Part shown: positions 39,175 to 53,076 of the stretch, piece after piece
Position numbering within the stretch: position 1 is the first letter of the stretch
How the letters are laid out: the number at the start of each line of letters is the position of its first letter
Assembly (NCBI RefSeq): GCF_014645555.1
Contig: NZ_BMLY01000001.1
Coordinates: 701,939 to 765,938, forward strand
Source of the DNA: Silvimonas amylolytica
GTDB taxonomy: Bacteria > Pseudomonadota > Gammaproteobacteria > Burkholderiales > Chitinibacteraceae
Direction: 5' to 3'
DNA length: 64,000 bases
Position numbers and translations under genes: made by a program
Notes under the pieces: model-generated
The model's database searches: none
The model's input: the letters and a program-made list of their open reading frames with translations, nothing else
Told to the model about the DNA's origin: nothing

Positions 39175-40269
39175 TTAGCGCCGTGCCGCGGCAAATACCG
39201 CCCAAAATGCACCTTTAGGCTGGCCTTGCGCATCAAACAGCAGCGGTTGGTCACGATGATCTGACGGTGCATCCTGATTGAGCCAGGTGCCCGCGTCGGT
39301 CACTCCCCACCACGTCACGGCGGTAACATCCGGATGATTGTGAATCATGCGCATGATCTCGCCATAACGCCGGGCCTGCAGTGCCAACAGGTTTTCACGC
39401 GTATCGTACAGATGGTTATCTTTCCATCGGTACAGGCTCATATCCAGCTCGGTAATCTGGTTTTCCAGACCCAACCGGGCGAAAGCGGTCAAGGTTTCAT
39501 CTATGGCCGCAACGGTCGGGTAAAACACGGAAATGTGCATTTGATGGCCAATGCCATTGACCGGCACGCCCCGTTGCAACAAGCCTTGTACCACCCGGAT
39601 CAGGCAGCGCTGTTTGGCAGGCGCTTCCGTTGAGTATTCATTGATGAACAGGCGCGCAGCCGGATCTGCAGCGTGGGCGTAACGAAAGGCGTAATCCACA
39701 TAGTCTGGTCCGACCACTTGATGCCATTTGTCATCACGCAGGCAGTCGGGTTGTTTCTCATCAATGATTTCGTTGACGACATCCCAGACGTAAACCTGCC
39801 CTTTGTAGCGCCCTACTTCGGTCTCGATATGCCGCTTTAGCCGCGCCAGCACCAGATTGCGGTCCGCCGGCTGGCCGTTGGTGCCCTGCCACATCCAGTC
39901 CGGTGTATGCAGGTGCCAAAGCAAGGTGTGGCCACGGATGGCCATGTCATGGCTTTGTGCAAAATGGACGATTGCATCGGCCGCTTCGAAATGGAACTCA
40001 CCCTCGCGTGGTTCGGTTGCCATTGGTTTCATGGCGTTCTCTGCCACCACGCTGTTGAATTGTTCAGCGATCAGGGTGCCTTGGGTTTTGATGTTTTTCT
40101 CATCTACCGCCGCACCGATCAACAATTGCCCTTGCCAGGCTTTGGCCAGCGACGGCTTAGGCACAATTCCGGTAGTTTGGGCTGGTGCGGGCGTGTTGCT
40201 GCTGCAGGCCAGCAGCGCACTGGTAACCAGCGTGCATGCCAAAACACGTGCGATACAGCCGGCGATCAT
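39175..40269 (-). CDS. GH10 endo-1,4-beta-xylanase lipoprotein
   Basis: 364 aa. A lipoprotein leader ends at LLAC. The GH10 barrel has HTLLWH, the acid/base Glu in WDVVNEIID, HQMHI, the nucleophile Glu in ITELDMSL and WWGVTDAGTWLN. It would cleave xylan backbones at the envelope. The ATG overlaps the previous gene's stop (ATGA) and has GGAGGC upstream, so it is translated together with the TPR protein. Together with the GH3 enzyme elsewhere in the window it suggests use of plant polysaccharide. Confidence 0.93.
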   Translation of the reverse strand: MIAGCIARVLACTLVTSALLACSSNTPAPAQTTGIVPKPSLAKAWQGQLLIGAAVDEKNIKTQGTLIAEQFNSVVAENAMKPMATEPREGEFHFEAADAIVHFAQSHDMAIRGHTLLWHLHTPDWMWQGTNGQPADRNLVLARLKRHIETEVGRYKGQVYVWDVVNEIIDEKQPDCLRDDKWHQVVGPDYVDYAFRYAHAADPAARLFINEYSTEAPAKQRCLIRVVQGLLQRGVPVNGIGHQMHISVFYPTVAAIDETLTAFARLGLENQITELDMSLYRWKDNHLYDTRENLLALQARRYGEIMRMIHNHPDVTAVTWWGVTDAGTWLNQDAPSDHRDQPLLFDAQGQPKGAFWAVFAAARR

Positions 40270-41657
40270 CGTTTTGCCTCCACCCGTTGCATCTCTACCC
40301 AATGTTGTAAATCCTGCACGACTGCATTGATCAAGGTCTGCCAGTCTCCCGCTGAGGTCTGCCAATACAGCTTGAATGTCGGGTACCACGGTGAATCTGT
40401 GCGGTGAGTCAGCCAGCGCCAGTCCGGTCGGAAATCCGGTAGCAGCACCCAGCAAGGTTTGCCCATCGCACCCGCCAGATGCGCTACGGCGGTATCGACC
40501 GTGATGATGAGATCAAGATTGCTGATCAGCGCGGCAGTGTCATCAAAACTCTGCAGTTCTGGTCCCGCCGCGAACAAAGAGGTCGGCACGGGCTCGACCA
40601 GCCGGGCTGATTCAGCCGGCCCTTTTTGCAGGCTCACAAACTGGATGCCAGGCACCATCAGCACCGGCGACAGCAAATCCAGCGCCGGGATAGAACGGTC
40701 TTTGTCATTTTCAAATGCCGCATTACCCTGCCATACCAACCCGACCCGAGGACCTGTTCCCTCTAGCCGGTCTTGCCACTGCGCGGCTTTGAGCGCATCT
40801 GCAAACAGATACGGGACGTGATGGGGAATATTGTCTAGCCGCGTGCCAAGGTACAACGGCAGGCTCATTGGCGGGCACCAATAGTCCCACCCGGTTTGCG
40901 GCACGGCCTCGTCGTAGCCGTAGACGTCGTCGAGCGTCGGCATACGCTGCAACAAGGTCTTGAGCGGTGGATGGCAGACCAGGCTCACCCGGTTGGCGCC
41001 CTGTGCCTTGAGCAACGTGGCATAGCGACAGAAATGCAGCATGTCACCAAAGCCAGCCTCGAAACCGATGAGAAAGGATTTGCCGGAGATCTCTTCGCCC
41101 TGCCAGCGCGGGAACTGAAAATAACGCCCGAGCGGATCGTCCGAGCGCGCCTCGCGCGCCGCCCAGCCTTCCTCAAAGCGCCCCTGACGCATCAGGATAT
41201 AACTGAGATTGAAACGCGCACGGTGGTAGTGCGGATCAATATCCAGCGCATGGCGATAACAGGCTTCTGCTTCGTCCTCACGCTTCAGGCAAGCCCACAA
41301 GACGCCCAGGCTGGACCATGCCTGCGCGGAGTTCGGTGTGAGTTCCAGCGCCTGCCGGAACGCCAGTTCTGCATCATCAAAGCGTTTGTGATTGAGCAAC
41401 AACACGCCCAGGTTGAGGTAAATCTGCGTGCTGGTTGGCTGTAACGCCAGCGCGCGGCTGTAACTGCCTACCGCGTCCGCGATCTCGCCTTTGCGCTCCT
41501 GCAATAGCGCCAGATTGGCCCAGATCGCCGCTTGATCCGGCGCGATCGCCAATGCCATTTTGTAGTGCGCTTCTGCAGCGGGCAGATTCCCCAACTCCAG
41601 CAAGCGATTGGCTTCATCAAACTGGTGCTGAACCTCAGGCGAATACGTAACAGACAT
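40266..41657 (-). CDS. TPR protein with glycosyltransferase-9-like C-terminal domain
   Basis: 463 aa. Residues ~10-185 hold about five TPR repeats (AAEAHYKMALAIAPDQAAIW..., DDAELAFRQALELTPNSAQAW). The C-terminal ~260 residues have the layout of heptosyltransferase-like GT9 domains (GDMLHFCRYATLLK, GLVWQGNAAFENDKDRS, DTAVAHLAGAMGKP). This combination is found in bacterial O-GlcNAc-transferase-like or envelope-glycan proteins. It overlaps the xylanase gene by 4 nt. The start MSVTYSPEV is preferred over an upstream ATG at 41732. Confidence 0.87.
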   Translation of the reverse strand: MSVTYSPEVQHQFDEANRLLELGNLPAAEAHYKMALAIAPDQAAIWANLALLQERKGEIADAVGSYSRALALQPTSTQIYLNLGVLLLNHKRFDDAELAFRQALELTPNSAQAWSSLGVLWACLKREDEAEACYRHALDIDPHYHRARFNLSYILMRQGRFEEGWAAREARSDDPLGRYFQFPRWQGEEISGKSFLIGFEAGFGDMLHFCRYATLLKAQGANRVSLVCHPPLKTLLQRMPTLDDVYGYDEAVPQTGWDYWCPPMSLPLYLGTRLDNIPHHVPYLFADALKAAQWQDRLEGTGPRVGLVWQGNAAFENDKDRSIPALDLLSPVLMVPGIQFVSLQKGPAESARLVEPVPTSLFAAGPELQSFDDTAALISNLDLIITVDTAVAHLAGAMGKPCWVLLPDFRPDWRWLTHRTDSPWYPTFKLYWQTSAGDWQTLINAVVQDLQHWVEMQRVEAKR

Positions 41658-41907: not shown

Positions 41908-42291
41908 TTAACGTCGCGTTGGCGTGTCTTGGGGAATCTCGACCGCCATCAACCCGGCCAGCCAGAAACAGAACACTGCGATCAACAGCGCCAGTATGCC
42001 CAGCGTGATGCCCAGTTGTTTGCCATGCCACAGGTGGCCCAGCCAATCGTTGAACTGGGCGACCAGCACGCCGGATGTACCGCCAATACGCTCCATCTGC
42101 GCGGTGTACTGGCGGCCCTGCATGGCTGAACTCGCCGAATCGACGACGTCATCGGCCAGCCAGTAGATCAGCCCGCCGCCGATCAATCCGGCAAACAGGA
42201 TAAGCACACCGGCAAGGCGCACGGTGGCGTGCGCGGTCCACGTCTTGCGCGCAGGTTGCGGCACGGGCGGAGGGAAATCAGGCATCGACAT
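41908..42291 (-). CDS. Small two-TM membrane protein
   Basis: 127 aa. Two membrane segments (about residues 24-46, VRLAGVLILFAGLIGGGLIYWL, and 90-114, LGITLGILALLIAVFCFWLAG) are separated by a ~45-residue loop. A proline-rich N-terminus precedes them. No family is recognised. Upstream there is no coupled gene. Confidence 0.65.
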   Translation of the reverse strand: MSMPDFPPPVPQPARKTWTAHATVRLAGVLILFAGLIGGGLIYWLADDVVDSASSAMQGRQYTAQMERIGGTSGVLVAQFNDWLGHLWHGKQLGITLGILALLIAVFCFWLAGLMAVEIPQDTPTRR

Positions 42292-42658
42292 GGCGGGTGG
42301 TCGGGATTTATACGGTTGTAATGACTAGCATAACGCTTCATGGGCAAGGTTGGCAGACGAGCTATCAGATCATTTGGGTCGGGCCCGTTCAGCGCAGACT
42401 GAGGCTCGAAATCACACACACCCTGGAACTGTCCATGAACAGTCTTGAACTTGAGCGCATCGCCAACGACTTGGCAACGGGTGCAGGTTGTCCGGGATCG
42501 CCAAGGTTGGGATGGCATTCCCGAGAATTGATTGGCTCCGAAATCCGATCAGACCCTGATGCAGCCCAGAGAAGGCAGGGTCTGCGCGTACAGACCTCGC
42601 TCGCCATAAAAAACGGCAGCCAAAGCTGCCGTTTTTTTCAACCCGTCAAACCAGGCGC
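42292..42658. other. 367-nt region with one terminator, no gene
   Basis: A plus-strand open frame from 42297 has no coding resemblance and runs into the chemoreceptor gene antisense. The only clear element is the terminator at 42607-42638. Confidence 0.5.
42607..42638. terminator. Terminator of the chemoreceptor fusion gene
   Basis: Stem AAAAACGGCAGC / GCTGCCGTTTTT, loop CAAA, with A- and T-tracts, 21 nt after the chemoreceptor-SBP stop on the minus strand. Confidence 0.88.
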
Positions 42659-44992
42659 TCAGCGATTCACCGCCGCAGCCAGACGTCGTGCGCCTTCGGC
42701 TGGTGTCATGGCTTCATTGGTCCAGAACTCCGCCACTGCTTCGATCAGTGCCTTTTTCTGGTCATCCTGCACCGCCATGTTGTGCGCCCAGGACGGCACC
42801 AGCGTGTTGCGGCTGGCAGCAGCCTGGAAGTCACGCGTAGATGCGCGGCCGTAGGCGTCCAGCTTGTTGGTATCCACATCCGTGCGGGCCGGGATACTGC
42901 CTTTGTGCTTGTTGTAGGCCAACTGACCTTCGTGACTGACCAGCAAGCGAACAAAGTCCAGCTGGGCTTTGCGGCGCACCGGGTCATCCTGCCGGAAGAA
43001 GGTCAGTGTGTCGGCGGCAAAGCTGTACTCGCCGCCCACGGAGGGCGCCGCCCAGAACAGGTAGTCTTCACCCGGCTTGCGGTTGGCTTCGTCCAGCTCA
43101 CCCTTCACCCAGTCACCCATCAATTGCATGGCAGCGCGGCCGTTGATCACGTCCGCCGTGGCCAGGTTCCATTCACGCCCAACCGAATCAGGTGTGCAGT
43201 ATTTCTTCAGCCGGCGGAAGGTTTCCAGCGCACGCGCCATCTGCGGGCCGTTGAGCGCACTGGCATCCAGCTTGCTGAAGGCCTGCATGTAAAACTGCGC
43301 ACCGCACAGGCCCAGCACCACGGATTCAAACAGCGTGGCGACCTGCCATTTCACTTCACTATGTGCCAGCGGCGTAATACCGGCCGAGACCAGCTTGTCG
43401 CACACCGTGAAAAACTCGTCCCAGCTGGACGGCGGCTGTGTGACGCCCACGCGCTTGACCAGGGTGGCATTCACCCACAGCACGTTCACGCGTGCCACAC
43501 CCAAAGGCGCTGCCACGTACTTGCCATCGGCCTGCATCATTTTGTCCAGCGCAGACGGCAGAATACGGCTCCAGCCTTGTTCATTGGCCACTTCGCCCAG
43601 GTCAGCCAATACACCCTTGCCAGCCCAGTTCTGGATCTTCACGCCACCAAATGCGGCGGCCGTCGGCAGTTTGCCTTTTTCGACTGCGGCCTTGAGCATG
43701 CCAGGCACGTCTTTACCACTATGCATATCAGCCCAGTGGTGGCCCATCTGGTTCAGACGCAGTTTGATTTCGGCCACGGCGCGCGCACCGCTGGATGCAA
43801 ACCAGCCATGCAGCACCTCAATATCTTCAAGACGGAAACGCCCTACCACGGCCATCAAGTCACGGGCGCGCTTGTCCAGAGACTCCAGCGCACGGCGGGC
43901 CTGTTGCAGGGCCGAATCAGACGCCTGACTCATCACGTTGATCTGCTCAGAGGACTGAGCCATCGTGGTGGCCGCAGAGGTTTGCTCTTGCGTGGCGTCG
44001 GCAATGCCCTGGATCACGTCGGCCATTTGGTCCATGCGCGCGCCAATTTGCAGCATGTGCTCACGCGCAACATCGGCCTTCTCGACACTGGCGGACACCT
44101 GGCTTGTGGTGCCTTCCATGCTGTCGACGGCTTTGCGGGTTTCTTTGTTGACCGATTCAATCAGACTGGCGATCTCTACCGTGGCGTTGGCAGTGCGCTC
44201 AGCCAGCTTGCGTACTTCATCGGCCACCACGGCAAAACCGCGGCCTTGCTCGCCTGCGCGTGCGGCCTCAATGGCGGCATTGAGTGCCAGCAGGTTGGTT
44301 TGCTCTGCAATATCCTTGATCACCACCACGATGCTGCCGATCTTCTGGGAATTCTTGCCCAGATCGGTCATCGTGCTGCCCAGTTGCTGCATGGATTGCG
44401 CCATGCTGGACACTTCATCTGACACGCGCAGCACGGCCTCAGCACTTTGGCGCGAAAGATGCGTGGTTTCTTTGACATTGCCATCAACGTCTGAGGCGTT
44501 GTCGGCAATGTGGGTGATGCTGACGGTGATTTCTTCCACCGCCGCAGCAGAAGCCGCCGCAAAGTCACTCTGGACATGGGCGTCTTTCACCAACTGAGCC
44601 GTCACGCCAGTCAGTTCTTTCAGTCCCAGCGAGAGGCTTTCCATATCACGCTGAACTTCACGGAACGTGACTTGCAGGTCAGACACAAAATGGTTGAACG
44701 CGTTGGCGATGTCGGCCAGTTCTGGCGCGCCGGTCGCCTCAACGCGGGTGTTGAGATCGCCCCCCTTTTCCACCAGCGTGGTCAAGGTATTGCGCAGACG
44801 GTTGAGCGGTTTCAGGGTCAGGCCGACGGCAACCCAGATACCGGCCAATACGGCCAGCAAGATAACAACGGCCACAGCAGCAATGGCACCACCGCTGGTG
44901 ATGCCCAAAGCGCCAATCAGGCAAGAGGCAAGGATAAAGCCGACAACGACAAGGGCCGCGACCCACAGAAGAATGCGGTTCTGGATGGACAT
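42659..44992 (-). CDS. Chemoreceptor fused at its C-terminus to a GtsA-like sugar-binding protein
   Basis: 777 aa. Two membrane segments (about 7-27 and 36-58) flank a periplasmic loop of only about 8 residues, followed by a HAMP-like segment (59-112) and the MCP signalling hairpin ([20 protein letters not shown] at ~228-247). The MCP module ends at VGRFRL (residue 388), as the neighbouring chemoreceptor does, and continues directly into a family-1 extracellular solute-binding protein ([19 protein letters not shown] ... [20 protein letters not shown] ... [12 protein letters not shown]), like the glucose/mannose SBP GtsA. It lacks a signal peptide. By the positive-inside rule both ends are cytoplasmic, placing the sugar-binding module inside the cell. 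A cytoplasmic sugar or glycan-state sensor feeding chemotaxis is inferred. Confidence 0.92.
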
Positions 44993-45356
44993 ATCAGGAT
45001 TCCAGGCTGTTTGTTTCCACTCATGACATACATAGCTGATATTTCTTTTTTTATGTGCAAACCATATCCGGAACTATCACAAAACACCACCGGATTTTTG
45101 ATATACGCAACATTAGCTTACGGAATAGTAGATTTTTTGTAGCGTTTTCGTCTTCGGACAAAAAATTGCTTTCATCAAATGAAATGTATACGCAAATCAG
45201 CTGGTGATACCTCTCTATGATTGTGAGAATACGCCCACATCATTTCTCCGTTGCCGGTCTGGCCACAAGACCAGGGCGCAAAGTCATTTGATTCAAATCA
45301 ATGCCAATCGTCGCTCATGCAATCAGCATGCTGTTATGCCATTTGAGAATCACACG
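44993..45356. other. AT-rich divergent region
   Basis: 364 nt between the chemoreceptor fusion and the bacteriohemerythrin, AT-rich around 45030-45200. It probably holds both promoters. I cannot identify individual -35/-10 boxes with confidence. Confidence 0.5.
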
Positions 45357-45818
45357 ATGCAAACGCTGGTGCAATGGGATGACAGTCTGTCGGTGGGTAT
45401 TCAGGAAATCGACGAACAACACAAAGTGCTGGTGGCGCTGCTCAACGAGTTATATGAAGCCATCCACCGCCATCAAGGTCGCGCCGCTTCAGTCGACATC
45501 CTGGGCCGACTGGCGGATTACACGCGCATCCATTTCACCGTGGAAGAAAGTCTGATGCGTATTCTGGGTTACCCGGAATACGAAGAACACAAACAGCATC
45601 ATGAGATTTTGATCGCTGATCTACGGGTGTTCCAGGCACGGGTTCAGGCGGGCGACGCGGTCACCTTTGAGCTACTGCATTTTTTGCGTAACTGGCTCAC
45701 TCATCACATTCAGGAGGGTGACACCCGCTATGCCGCGTTCTTTCTGGAACGCGGCGCGCAGGCTACCTGGCAAAAAAAGAGTTGGCTGGACCGTTTCTGG
45801 TCTGGCATGACGGGCTAG
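45357..45818 (+). CDS. Bacteriohemerythrin
   Basis: 153 aa. All di-iron ligands are visible: the His of DEQHK, HFTVEE with His and Glu, the HKQHHE pair, and HHIQEGD with His and Asp. It would bind O2 reversibly for storage, delivery or sensing. The ATG at 45357 is chosen because MQTLVQWDDSLSVGI is the canonical start. It is divergent from the chemoreceptor fusion and convergent with, and overlapping by 4 nt, the next gene. In other bacteria hemerythrins help aerotaxis; that link is inferential. Confidence 0.93.
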   Translation: MQTLVQWDDSLSVGIQEIDEQHKVLVALLNELYEAIHRHQGRAASVDILGRLADYTRIHFTVEESLMRILGYPEYEEHKQHHEILIADLRVFQARVQAGDAVTFELLHFLRNWLTHHIQEGDTRYAAFFLERGAQATWQKKSWLDRFWSGMTG

Positions 45819-47428: not shown

Positions 47429-47452
47429 CCTGTATGTGTATTGGCGGTCATC

Positions 47453-47481
47453 AAAAAGCCCCGGGAAACCGGGGCTTTTTA
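47453..47481 (+). terminator. gap terminator
   Basis: Stem AAAGCCCCGG / CCGGGGCTTT with loop GAAA, followed by a T-tract. Confidence 0.88.
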
Positions 47482-47606
47482 TTAGATACGGGCAATCACA
47501 ACCCGGCATTCCCTCAGAAAAGCAATCAGGTGAACTGGAGTCTGCAAAACCTGCAAGTCATGCCAATAATCCATGGATAGTTGCCAATAACAAATGGAGA
47601 GCAATC

Positions 47607-49502
47607 ATGGCTCTGGGTATGCGGACTTTGCAAAGTAAACTGGTCGCGGCAGTCAGCGCGATGGTCATTGTGACGGGTGTAGTCATCGCGGGGGCGAGCT
47701 ACTTTTTATCAAGTGCGCAGCAAGAGAGTGAATCCAAGGCACAGATCAGTGCAGTCAGCAGCGTGCTGGGGATTCACATCGGCAACTGGATTTCCGCCAA
47801 GGCCCAGGTACTCAACGCATTCAAACCGGTACCGCATGATGCCGGCCTTGTCGCCGGTATGGGTTATGCGCGGGACGCCGGTGGCTTTGCCAATGTGTTC
47901 CTGGCTTACCCGGATGGCACCCAGCAAAACGCCAACAATGTGACCTTGCCGCCGGATAACAATGATCCGCGCAAATGGCACTGGTGGGGTCGCGCTCAGG
48001 CTGAACAGAATGGAACGTTTGTCGAGATGCCGTCGGTGGCAGCGGCAACAGGCTCTGCGGTTTCAAGCTTTGCGCACGCCGTCGTCAATGGGGGTCAGGT
48101 AGTCGGCGTCATCGGCGCAGACGTCGAAATCTCATCCATCATGCAAGAACTCAAGCGCACGCAATTGCCCGGTGAAGGTTATGCATTCATCGTCAATCAT
48201 GATGGCCTGATCTTTGCGCATAGCGACCCATCGCGCCTGAATCAGCCTGCATCCGTATTGGGTGCCGCGCTGACACCGGCGGTTCTGGAATCCACCTTCA
48301 ACGACAAGGGTTTTTCTGAGGTCGCCATTGATGGGCGCACCAAGTTGATCACGGTATTGCCCGTGCCGGGTACCGAGTTCCGCCTGGTCGCCGTCAGCGA
48401 CAAAGCCGCACTGCAAGCCGCCACGCGCTCCCTGTTGTTCAAGAGCGTGATTATTCTGATTGTGTTGCTGGTGGTGATCATCAGCCTGAGCGCGCTGTTC
48501 CTGCGCAAACAACTGCAACCGCTGTTGGGTATCCGTAAAGCCATGCGCGATATCTCGCAAGGCGATGCAGATCTCTCTCGCCGTCTGCCGGTGCTCACGC
48601 AAGATGAAGTCGGCCAGACCAGTGAGGCGTTCAACCAGTTCATCGGCCAGTTGGGCAAGACCTTTGCCGACGTCCGCAGCCGCAGCCAGCAATTGGCGCA
48701 AGGCGTAGAAAACGCACGCAATGAAATCCAGCGTATCGCGCGGGAGACCAACTCGATTACCGATTTTGCCGGCCACAATGCCGCGGCCATTGAAGAAGTG
48801 ACGGTCAGCGTGTCAGAGGTGGCGGCATCCGCCCAACAGGCTGATGAACTGGCCAGCCAGACCGCTGAACAAAGTACGAATAGCGCACGGGACCTGGAGA
48901 AAATCTCCCGTGAGAGCGGTCAAACGCGTGAAACGGTCCAGTCGATCTCCGGCATGCTCGATACCCTGGCGCAACGCGCCAGCGATATTCGCTCCATTAC
49001 GACGGTCATCGGCGAGATTGCTGGCCAGACCAACCTGCTGGCATTGAACGCAGCGATTGAAGCCGCCCGTGCCGGCGAACAAGGCCGTGGTTTTGCGGTG
49101 GTGGCTGATGAAGTGCGCAAACTGGCAGAACGCACTAGCGCGGCCACCGGCGAGATCACCGGCATGCTCGAATCCATCAGCAAAGAAACCGAGAGCGCCG
49201 CCGGCAGCATGCAAGGTGCACTCGATAGCGTCACCGCCAGCGTGACCCTCACCGAACAGGCCAGCGGGCGCATGCGTGAAGTGGCCAGCAGCATTCAGGA
49301 TATGGCCGGTCGCGTAGGCCATATTGCCGATGCCACGCTGGAACAACGTAACGCAACCAATGCCATGAGCGAGAGTACTGAGCAGATCAACCAGCGGATT
49401 GGTCAGTCTGACTCTTCGCTGCAAAACACCTCACGCAATCTGGAAGAACTGGAAAAACTGGCGCAGGCCATCAATGCAGACTTTGGGCGGTTCCGCCTCT
49501 AG
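47607..49502 (+). CDS. Methyl-accepting chemotaxis protein with dCache ligand domain
   Basis: 631 aa. Membrane segment about 12-34, a periplasmic ligand domain of about 240 residues with dCache character ([14 protein letters not shown]-like start, [20 protein letters not shown] end), second membrane segment about 279-301, HAMP, and the MCP hairpin ([20 protein letters not shown]). It ends at FGRFRL. It probably detects amino acids or organic acids. GGAGAG precedes the ATG at 47607. It stands alone, so signalling goes through chromosomal Che proteins outside the window. Confidence 0.93.
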
Positions 49503-50531: not shown

Positions 50532-50709
50532 TCAACCCTTGATGGTGCTCTGCATCAAACCTGGTTTGGGAATCAGCACAATCTGATTTACGTCTATCAG
50601 ATGGCGTGTTCGATATCACCGCTTTGTCAGAAGTCGCTGACTATCTTTCGGGCGAACGCGCTGCGGATATTGCATCGCACCACGATTTCGCCCTGCCAGA
50701 GGTATGTGT

Positions 50710-53076
50710 ATGTCGTTTGTTGAACAAAACGCGAGCCATATCGTGACTGCCAATGATCGCGTTACCAAGGTCTTTCAGCATCGCAGTGAAACTGCCCGTG
50801 CGCAGTTGACTGATCGCATTGGCAAATCAGCCGAGCGCCTTGCTGCGCTGCAAGCGCGCTCCTGGCTCAATCCATGGCAGGTGTTTGAAGACTGGTGGTC
50901 CTACGGCCTGGACGCCACGCAGCGCGGCGTGCTCTTCATGGATACCCTGCGTGAACGAGGCAACAACTATCTGCGCCATGTCGAAGCCGGCCAACCGCCT
51001 GTGCTGCACTTCGAGTACGAAATGGTGCTGGATGCCCGAACCTTTGAGCACCCGGTCAATTACGCGTTGATCCGAATCACTCCCCCTGCCGGCGTCAAGG
51101 TCGACGCGAAAAAACGTCCCTACGTCATCATTGATCCCCGCGCAGGACATGGTCCGGGCATTGGTGGTTTCAAAGATGACTCTCAGGTGGGGGTTGCGTT
51201 GCGCGGCGGTCATCCGGTGTATTTCGTGATCTTTTTCCGCGATCCTGAACCCGGTCAGACACTGCTGGATGTCTGCGCAGTAGAAGCCGTGTTTGTACGC
51301 AAAGTCCGTGAGTTGCACCCGGACAGCCCCAAGCCCGCCATCGTTGGCAATTGCCAGGGCGGCTGGGCCGCCATGATGCTGGCGGCATCCGGCCCGCAAG
51401 ACACCGGCCCGATCGTCATCAATGGTGCGCCGATGTCGTACTGGGGCGGTGCCTGGGGTGATGGCATGGCAGATAACCCCATGCGCTATTCCGGCGGACT
51501 GTTGGGTGGCAGCTGGCTGGCGTCGCTCACGGCGGATCTGGGCAACGGCATTTTTGATGGCGCCTGGCTGGTCGACAATTTTGAGGCCCTGAACCCGGCC
51601 AATACGTTCTGGGACAAGTACTACCACGTATTTGCCAATGCGGACACGGAACCGCCACGTTTTCTGGAGTTCGAGCGCTGGTGGGGCGGGTTCTATCTGA
51701 TGAACCGCGAAGAGATCGAATGGATAACCCGGAATCTGTTCGTAGGCAACCAACTCTGGCAAGGCGGCACCCGTGATGGCAAGGGTGCCACGTTTGATCT
51801 GCGCGAAATCAAAACGCCCATCGTGTTGTTTGCCTCTATGGGAGACAACATCACCCCGCCACAGCAAGCCTTCAACTGGGTGGCAGATGTGTATGGCAGT
51901 ACCGAAGAAATCAAAAAGCGTGGCCAGACCATTGTTGGCTTGCTGCATCACGATATCGGTCATCTGGGTATTTTCGTCTCTGGCAAAGTCGCCAAAAAAG
52001 AACATGCGCAGATTGTCGAAGTTCTTGAATCAATTGAACTCTTGCCGCCGGGACTGTACGGCATGGAGCTGACCGAGGTCCGTCATGATGATGGACAAGT
52101 GACCTGGCAAGTGGAATTCCGTGAGCGTGAACTGGCAGACGTAGCCGGGCGTTTGAACCGCTTTGCACGCAAGGATGAAAAACCGTTTGCTGCAGTGGCT
52201 CAGGTCTCTGAGTTGAACCAGCGTGCGTATGAACTATTTGCCCGGCCACTGGTACAGTCAATCAGCAACGAACAAAACGCCAAACTGCTGCGTTACTTGC
52301 ACCCTTTACGCATGCAGCGTTGGGGCGTGTCAGAACTCAACCCCTGGTTGTCATGGCTGCCTGGTGCCACTGAACAGGTCAAAGCGCATCGCGCTGCAGT
52401 ACCCAAAGACCAGTACTTCCGCCAACTGGAAGAAACGGGTTCGGCGTTGATCAGCGCCGGCCTGGATTACTACCGGGCCATGCGTGACGCACTCAGCGAA
52501 GCCATGTTCTTCCAGATCTACGGCAACATTTTTGGCCAGGTAGCGGCCTCTGATGCCGAGCCACTCATGGCTAAATTCGCCCCGACAGGCGAGCAGTTCG
52601 TCCAGGAAGCATTGGCTGCGATCGAGGATGGCGGGTTTGACGACGCCTTTGCTCGCATTTCCGCGCTATTGACCCGGCCGGGTGATATCTCTTTATCCCG
52701 CCTCGCCCTCACCCGGGAGATCGCTAACGACTATGCCGCGCTGTTGCCCGATCTGCCACTGGATCAATGGCGGCGTATCCGCGGTGAACAGGAAATCATC
52801 GTCCGTCATGCGCGTGATGAAGCCCTGCGTACCCTGCCGGCCCTGGTGTTCGACCCCACCGCCCGCGCGCGTCTGCTCGCATTACTGGACGCGCTTGTGG
52901 CCGACCCACGCATACAGGATCGCATGGCGTTACCGGAACAATCGGCCACGCTGGCTCGGATCAGAGCGGTGCTGGCCCTGCCGGCAGAGATCTCGCCGCC
53001 CGTGCCGCCTGCAAAGCCCGCCGCACCGCGCCGCAAACGCAGCCCGGCCAAACCGGCCCTCGCCGCAGACAAGTGA
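50710..53076 (+). CDS. DUF3141 PhaC-like alpha/beta hydrolase
   Basis: 788 aa. The N-terminal part contains LNPWQVFEDWWSYGLDATQR, resembling the segment before the catalytic domain in PHA synthases. The nucleophile elbow GNCQGGW carries Cys215, where PHA synthases also have Cys. DNITPPQQ (Asp) and HHDIGHLGIF (His) complete the triad order. The C-terminal ~250 residues are helical and end in a Pro/Ala/Lys-rich tail. The ATG at 50710 is chosen because GAGG lies 7 nt upstream. It is first of a tight operon with a phosphotransacylase, acetate kinase and FabI-like reductase. The substrate (polyhydroxyalkanoate or acyl-CoA) is inferred. Confidence 0.87.
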   Translation: MSFVEQNASHIVTANDRVTKVFQHRSETARAQLTDRIGKSAERLAALQARSWLNPWQVFEDWWSYGLDATQRGVLFMDTLRERGNNYLRHVEAGQPPVLHFEYEMVLDARTFEHPVNYALIRITPPAGVKVDAKKRPYVIIDPRAGHGPGIGGFKDDSQVGVALRGGHPVYFVIFFRDPEPGQTLLDVCAVEAVFVRKVRELHPDSPKPAIVGNCQGGWAAMMLAASGPQDTGPIVINGAPMSYWGGAWGDGMADNPMRYSGGLLGGSWLASLTADLGNGIFDGAWLVDNFEALNPANTFWDKYYHVFANADTEPPRFLEFERWWGGFYLMNREEIEWITRNLFVGNQLWQGGTRDGKGATFDLREIKTPIVLFASMGDNITPPQQAFNWVADVYGSTEEIKKRGQTIVGLLHHDIGHLGIFVSGKVAKKEHAQIVEVLESIELLPPGLYGMELTEVRHDDGQVTWQVEFRERELADVAGRLNRFARKDEKPFAAVAQVSELNQRAYELFARPLVQSISNEQNAKLLRYLHPLRMQRWGVSELNPWLSWLPGATEQVKAHRAAVPKDQYFRQLEETGSALISAGLDYYRAMRDALSEAMFFQIYGNIFGQVAASDAEPLMAKFAPTGEQFVQEALAAIEDGGFDDAFARISALLTRPGDISLSRLALTREIANDYAALLPDLPLDQWRRIRGEQEIIVRHARDEALRTLPALVFDPTARARLLALLDALVADPRIQDRMALPEQSATLARIRAVLALPAEISPPVPPAKPAAPRRKRSPAKPALAADK

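Follow-up and report, generated by a model that had tools for sequence, protein, structure and literature searches.

One gene of Silvimonas amylolytica encodes a chemoreceptor that carries a complete sugar-type solute-binding protein (SBP) behind its signalling domain. The gene lies in a stretch of 64,000 nucleotides that was analysed as a whole (the window), and the same fusion is present as 51 uninterrupted copies in 35 of the 43 genomes of the window's family, with one or two copies per genome. Our preferred reading, to which we assign a probability of roughly 0.6, is that the product is a chemoreceptor anchored in the membrane that takes its sensory input from a C-terminal Venus-flytrap (SBP) domain located in the cytoplasm. 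The architecture, the common descent of the SBP half, purifying selection, conserved cleft residues and the loss of a cysteine pair are all apparent at the level of sequence.

A complete solute-binding module follows the signalling domain

The fusion gene has an ATG start, encodes 777 amino acids and contains no internal stops. Its features are as follows:

42659..44992, minus strand: fusion gene, in the order hairpin, HAMP, MCP coiled coil, SBP (777 codons and stop)
44909..44986, minus strand: predicted first membrane helix of the hairpin, residues 3-28 (AF2 helix and hydropathy)
44825..44893, minus strand: predicted second membrane helix, residues 34-56 (hydropathy and AF2; the model helix continues to residue 75, into HAMP)
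44672..44824, minus strand: HAMP domain, residues 57-107 (Pfam PF00672, E 2.1e-9)
43934..44410, minus strand: MCP signalling domain, including the conserved hairpin tip, residues 195-353 (Pfam PF00015, E 1.4e-46)
43823..43840, minus strand: junction from the last MCP helix to the first SBP strand, residues 385-390 (AF2 secondary structure and alignment of the 51 fusions)
42662..43828, minus strand: complete GtsA-like solute-binding module, residues 389-777 (Pfam, 5dvf alignment, AF2)

Residues 1-388 match MCPs. The Pfam search suggested in the first-pass annotation recovered all three domains in the window protein, HAMP with 38.0 bits against a cut-off of 25, MCPsignal with 158.9 bits against 34.6, and SBP_bac_1 over residues 432-690 (E 5.5e-21). 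Nearly the whole of the SBP half (residues 389-777) can be aligned with the mature Pseudomonas putida glucose-binding protein 5dvf (E 1.9e-83), in agreement with the earlier description of a nearly full-length GtsA-like protein. Across the family, MCPsignal and SBP_bac_1 were detected at E 0.001 in 51/51 fusions and HAMP in 39/51, many invariant columns fall at residues 229-266 in the hairpin tip, and domain order and junction are identical in every copy, with the sensor-type domain behind the MCP signalling domain throughout. The twelve fusions in which HAMP fails at this threshold may indicate that the domain is decaying in part of the family.

The position of the junction was explored with an AF2 model of the full-length protein built on the 51-fusion alignment. 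The model predicts helices at residues 3-28 and 34-75, a long hairpin at 90-384, a break at 385-390 and a first SBP strand at 391-395, so that the SBP starts about six residues after the end of the MCP coiled coil. A neighbouring MCP (47436-49502) terminates in FGRFRL followed directly by a stop, and together with the modelled break this places the junction at the normal MCP end, as had been claimed. That neighbour is an ordinary dCache_1 chemoreceptor. Confidence in the full-length model is fair (pLDDT 77.7, pTM 0.56, about 59-65 around the tip), and because it is also a monomer model the geometry of the SBP relative to the bundle is not established. The SBP half modelled alone from 34 sequences reaches a pLDDT of 91.8 and has the glucose-binding proteins 5xpj, 5dvj and 5dvf as its best solved matches (TM 0.90-0.93; 0.93 to 5xpj and 0.92 to 5dvf), with the two-lobe fold intact in the prediction.

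At the other end of the protein, a periplasmic ligand-binding domain between the membrane helices is absent. Only residues 29-33 lie there in the AF2 model, which fits the earlier remark that the receptor has almost no periplasmic part, and a crude estimate over the 51 fusions puts the gap between the N-terminal hydrophobic windows at 7-21 residues; the hairpin call itself rests on hydropathy and the AF2 model. Mean identity among the 51 fusions is 25% in the hairpin and 36% in HAMP, compared with 77% in the tip and 64% in the SBP, a distribution that would be expected if the SBP supplies the input. By this measure the membrane part looks like a plain anchor, with the signalling bundle and the SBP as the most conserved regions. 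In eight ortholog pairs within the window's genus, dN/dS was 0.025-0.069 for the SBP part, 0.009-0.103 for the MCP part and 0.047-0.331 for hairpin and HAMP; the widest pairs are highly diverged at synonymous sites, and the lowest ratios are therefore rough. Judged from these ratios, the SBP half is under purifying selection. The first-pass annotation had allowed for an SBP that serves no purpose, and purifying selection and the intact predicted fold argue against such a useless passenger.

In the genomes searched the fusion is restricted to one family, and its SBP half is of common descent

All fusions found belong, as far as the searches reach, to a single family, Chitinibacteraceae. These searches covered relatives of this protein in genome samples, among the candidates listed per genome. 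Eight of the 43 family genomes are free of the fusion, namely all three of genus g9 and five of the nine of the Iodobacter-like genus g7, and none of 16 genomes from other families among the relatives carries one. Among the candidates listed per genome, all eight matching genomes (E 1e-113) in an order sample of 250 belong to the window's family, and the one match in a class sample of 369 genomes is the window's own. A phylum sample of 398 genomes, searched at a laxer 1e-85, gave 24 matched genomes in which no frame exceeded 539 aa apart from the window genome's own two fusions. Among 66 matching plasmid records, none had one place covering more than 80% of the query. The survey across Neisseriales proposed in the first-pass annotation thus limits the fusion to Chitinibacteraceae in the genomes searched, rather than extending it to Neisseriales at large.

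The best 80 of 102 named relatives comprise 21 fusions and 59 SBPs in frames without an MCP tip; four of these 59 unfused loci (L125, L139, L141 and L169) have long open frames of 604-930 aa, in which the MCP tip motif is absent. Named fusion hosts are Silvimonas, Amantichitinum, Chitinilyticum, Deefgea, Iodobacter, Chitinibacter, Chitinolyticbacter, Chitiniphilus, Andreprevotia and Jeongeupia, all ten of them listed under Chitinibacteraceae, besides two MAGs labelled Proteobacteria and Janthinobacterium. By identity of their SBP halves to the window protein, the fusions form two groups, FA with 20 members including the window's and FB with 31. The two MAGs ("Proteobacteria bacterium" and "Janthinobacterium sp.", L103 and L114) hold FA fusions that group with the Iodobacter one, and their labels look wrong. 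The window's genome carries a second full-length fusion elsewhere (L002, 51% identical) and also unfused relatives, including L003 and L004, whose starts resemble signal sequences by eye; L004, an unfused SBP, adjoins a permease-like frame, again by eye.

The two halves of the fusion remain associated. When the MCP coiled coil (residues 92-388) was used as query, the top 51 matches listed in the 43 family genomes were exactly the fusions, the lowest scoring 291.7 bits compared with 240.6 bits for the best unfused MCP listed, and no close relative of the MCP half without an SBP was found among these matches. In the SBP tree the 51 fusions form one group with support of 100/100. A quick MCP tree recovers FA again as a group, its root being unsure owing to the long branches of the four unfused MCPs used as outgroup. 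Among unfused SBPs the closest is L031, found in a genome of the Iodobacter-like genus g7; it groups with the fusions at a support of 100/99, a placement to be treated with care given its long branch. L031 keeps both cysteines discussed below and an apparent signal sequence (by eye), and its pocket, WWEATGWWADKH, holds two replacements common in the fusions, Gly at 92 and Ala at 301. Since this pocket is already partly altered, the change may have begun before the move into the cytoplasm. The ancestor of the SBP would be a periplasmic protein of GtsA type, with pocket changes that probably set in before fusion. A complementary distribution of the fusion and the unfused sister SBP was looked for in the Iodobacter-like genus, but no pattern emerged: a close copy of the sister occurs in G009 only, and 52% is the highest identity among the remaining matches listed for the family.

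Loss of a cysteine pair supports a cytoplasmic location of the SBP

Two membrane helices ahead of HAMP and the MCP domain imply that the C-terminus is inside the cell. Hydropathy finds no export signal or signal peptide before the SBP in the 51 fusions, and their junctions are free of strongly hydrophobic stretches (19-residue Kyte-Doolittle maximum 1.27), which bears out the first-pass statement that the SBP lacks a signal peptide. By the crude Kyte-Doolittle measure, the weakest N-terminal hairpin (1.61) and the most hydrophobic SBP helix (1.66) are not told apart, so that the topology rests on domain order, the model and cysteine loss taken together.

The cysteines at positions 286 and 354 of the 5dvf chain, which form a putative disulfide, are both present in 42/42 unfused SBPs compared and both present in 0/51 fusions. 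The comparators comprise 26 GtsA-like proteins, including 5dvf, and 16 more distant ones, 41 of the 42 being a selection of family and order hits. A further 59 unfused named SBPs hold both cysteines in 58 cases, the remaining one having a gap at the second position. In the fusions the second position is Tyr in 51/51, and the first is Phe in 20, Gly in five and a lone retained Cys in 26; the window residues are F646 and Y714. Absence of the pair is not proof of a cytoplasmic location, because the Thermus glucose-binding protein 2b3b also lacks it in the alignment. Nevertheless, the loss supports a cytoplasmic SBP half, of which it is the strongest independent sign in the sequences, and it gives backing in 51/51 fusions to the placement that had first been proposed from membrane topology. 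All 20 FA fusions have new cysteines at 5dvf chain positions 171 and 239 that do not occur in the unfused comparators and are possibly free thiols.

The binding cleft is conserved but altered

Twelve glucose contacts have been described for the P. putida CSV86 protein (PMC7927077). Six of these, W36, W250, W270, D303, K339 and H379, are kept in 51/51 fusions (W397, W608, W628, D661, K697 and H737 in the window protein). The window protein has changed the others, to G396, G402, A447, G449 and A659 and at the position equal to G68, and so retains 6/12 of the set compared with 12/12 in 5dvf; position 68, in a gapped part of the alignment, is uninformative. Positions 90 and 301 are Ala in 51/51 fusions, and position 92 is Gly in 46 and Arg in five. 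The two fusion groups differ at the remaining sites. FA has lost E41 and the aromatic residue at 35 in 20/20, and FB keeps E41 in 31/31 and W35 in 21/31; in the unfused comparators, position 35 is Trp, Tyr or Phe and position 41 is Glu in 42/42.

Not all of these replacements are peculiar to the fusions. The 16 distant unfused relatives never have Lys at 92 or Asn at 301, and the 59 named unfused SBPs have Lys at 92 in 37 and Asn at 301 in 54, so by sequence comparison the changes of K92 and N301 are not special to the fusions. Ala at 90 does set them apart (51/51 compared with 0/101 unfused SBPs; the five closest solved relatives have Gln aligned there in the printed alignments), and the losses of E41 and of the aromatic residue at 35 are specific to FA, each residue being kept in 0/20 compared with 101/101.

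In P. aeruginosa GltB, the glucose-induced response was lost when W33, W34 or D301 was replaced by Ala, and it fell to about half in K90A and W268A (PMC7927077). The window's group has no equivalents of two of these five residues, W33 and K90, which makes glucose doubtful for FA and leaves it open for FB. With the aromatic residue at 35 and E41 both lost, binding in FA could be weak, different or absent. Judged by its residues, the cleft combines conservation with change, and glucose cannot safely be assumed as the ligand. Glucose, mannose and xylose, the ligands suggested in the first-pass annotation, have accordingly become weaker candidates, as the window pocket keeps six of the twelve glucose contacts and replaces six. 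NCBIfam sugar-SBP models scored far below their cut-offs.

Alternative explanations

That the fusion is an assembly error, a frameshift or a one-off accident has a practically negligible probability, and nothing was found in its favour. The frame is intact and its Pfam domains are all detected, the 51 copies are uninterrupted and spread over 35 of 43 family genomes, several of which are single contigs, and the protein is under purifying selection; the frameshift or assembly error that the first-pass annotation had named among its refuting conditions is answered by these copies, and the artefact was rejected on the ground that the fusion is conserved in the family. The fusion itself is thus real. 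Export of the C-terminal half, with the SBP working in the periplasm as usual, would agree with the normal location of SBPs outside the cytosol (PMC9602780), but this reading is very improbable given that the domain order, with two membrane helices before HAMP and the MCP coiled coil, implies a C-terminus inside the cell, that no signal-like hydrophobic segment occurs at the junction and that the cysteine pair is gone.

The other two alternatives accept the cytoplasmic address and concern what the SBP half does there. The window's genome encodes two PTS permeases, of the glucose and N-acetylglucosamine type, as well as GtsA-type SBPs, so that free and phosphorylated sugars could both occur inside the cell. 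We regard it as unlikely that the SBP half is a docking or structural domain that binds no small molecule, for instance a platform for a sugar kinase or a PTS component. The soluble parts of the PTS permeases would be conceivable partners, and FA lacks the aromatic residue at 35 and E41 while all 51 fusions have Ala at 90 and 301; however, none of the 51 departs from the six kept contacts, the two-lobe fold is predicted to be intact, and Ala at 90 in every fusion and in none of 101 unfused SBPs looks more like a retuned than an abandoned pocket. A cytosolic ligand other than a free sugar, such as a phosphorylated or amino sugar or a product of chitin breakdown, would make the receptor a reporter of metabolism rather than of uptake. 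PTS uptake would supply phosphorylated sugars, the pocket would be made larger by Ala at 90 and 301 and, in most fusions, by Gly at 92, 46/51 fusions have a Lys near the former K92 (K452 in the window protein), and the named hosts are Chitinibacteraceae, several of whose genus names refer to chitin. Yet the link to chitin is by taxon only, the ligand is not predictable from sequence alone, and TIGR03851, the model for a GlcNAc/chitobiose SBP, gave 55.9 bits against a cut-off of 399.65; we hold a ligand of this kind to be quite unlikely.

A model for sensing inside the cell

We return to the preferred reading, a chemoreceptor with a cytoplasmic Venus-flytrap domain as input, for which we infer the cytoplasmic address, ligand binding, the class of ligand and coupling to CheA. 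The N-terminal hairpin would act only as an anchor. A cytosolic small molecule, most likely an imported sugar or sugar derivative, would close the two lobes of the SBP. About six residues link the SBP to the point where the last MCP helix ends, near HAMP and the adaptation region, so that lobe closure would move the helix bundle and thereby change CheA activity at the far tip. The window's genome has three CheA dimerisation-domain matches above the cut-off. After fusion the SBP would have lost its cysteine pair, and FA and FB would have diverged in the pocket and probably in ligand. More tentatively, at somewhat less than even odds, a periplasmic transport protein may have moved whole into the cytoplasm once, early in Chitinibacteraceae, to become the input of a pair of chemoreceptors that steer by imported compounds, with FA and FB tuned to different sugars or chitin-derived compounds.

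Chemoreceptors with a C-terminal ligand-binding domain are a known class, with at least 17 domain types in that place (PMC7390727), and Helicobacter pylori TlpD, which has a C-terminal CZB sensor domain on an MCP, is a solved precedent (PMC12871147). As in TlpD, the sensor domain of the fusion sits behind the signalling part of the MCP, where the ascending helix ends, and putatively in the cytoplasm; TlpD is a soluble protein with a zinc-binding helical domain, whereas the fusion is membrane-anchored and bears a 389-residue two-lobe sugar-type SBP. Our preferred model would therefore follow a TlpD-like logic in which a Venus-flytrap domain replaces CZB. The GtsA/GltB glucose-binding proteins (5dvf, 5xpj and P. 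aeruginosa GltB) share the fold over the full length at 37-38% identity. Unlike them, the fusion SBP has no signal peptide and no cysteine pair, is fused to an MCP, has several contacts replaced and has no adjacent ABC permease that could be recognised.

The chemoreceptor of maltose-binding protein is Tar, and LacI-type and LysR-type regulators are cytosolic or signalling proteins with SBP-type domains. Maltose-binding protein docks on a chemoreceptor (reference in PMC9602780), as GltB does on PctA and PA2788 domains (PMC7927077). In both cases an SBP feeds a chemoreceptor, as proposed here, but the docking SBPs are separate periplasmic proteins that contact a periplasmic domain, whereas the fusion SBP is covalently attached and would lie at the opposite face of the membrane. 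Among the members of SBP Pfam families, many are cytosolic or serve as sensor domains in signalling systems (PMC9602780), and the accessible part of that source names no C-terminal SBP_bac_1 on a chemoreceptor. 'SBPbac' and 'MCPsignal' both occur in PMC2536512. We found no description of an SBP_bac_1 module at the C-terminus of a chemoreceptor in the open-access literature searched, although the 17 types of PMC7390727 may include it. The first-pass remark that no well-described example was known would stand for the SBP_bac_1 module and falls for C-terminal sensor domains in general; as far as the open-access literature searched goes, what is new is the SBP_bac_1 module in that place.

If the preferred reading is correct, a high-affinity domain placed on a receptor inside the cell may be a simple means of steering by the internal level of a sugar or metabolite. 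The family would also provide a natural example of a Venus-flytrap domain that has switched compartment, with one fusion clade, the unfused sister L031, a lost cysteine pair and a traceable change of pocket. Structures have been solved for soluble close relatives of the isolated module, which should itself be easily assayed.

Genomic context of the fusion genes

The neighbourhoods of 35 loci (21 named, 13 further family loci and the window) were compared, with 33 clustered and L054 and L056, whose fusion frame went unrecognised, left out. Clusters of flanking frames common to at least 4/33 loci are lineage-specific; by eye they include no sugar transport that would serve as a clue to the ligand, and no permease was recognised among them. 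No permease was seen by eye among the frames surrounding the window's fusion gene. Upstream of the 51 fusions, a search for a flagellar sigma-28 type promoter gave 10/12 matches in 1/51, as in base-shuffled controls (3.1%), and a sigma-70 scan of 42200-45300 returned none (mean of 1.0 in shuffles). By eye, no ABC permease was recognised beside the unfused sister SBP (L178:9229-10539, G009) either, and its surroundings name no ligand. This sister is an orphan SBP of periplasmic type, with a pocket resembling that of the fusions, and lies, by eye, directly downstream of an ftsK-like gene. In the window itself, a Glycosyl hydrolase family 10 protein (39175-40455; PF00331, E 4.5e-98) is encoded near the fusion gene, a Hemerythrin-domain protein (45204-45818; PF01814) is its divergent neighbour, and a large DUF3141 protein (PF11339, E 1e-250) is found at 50704-53076.
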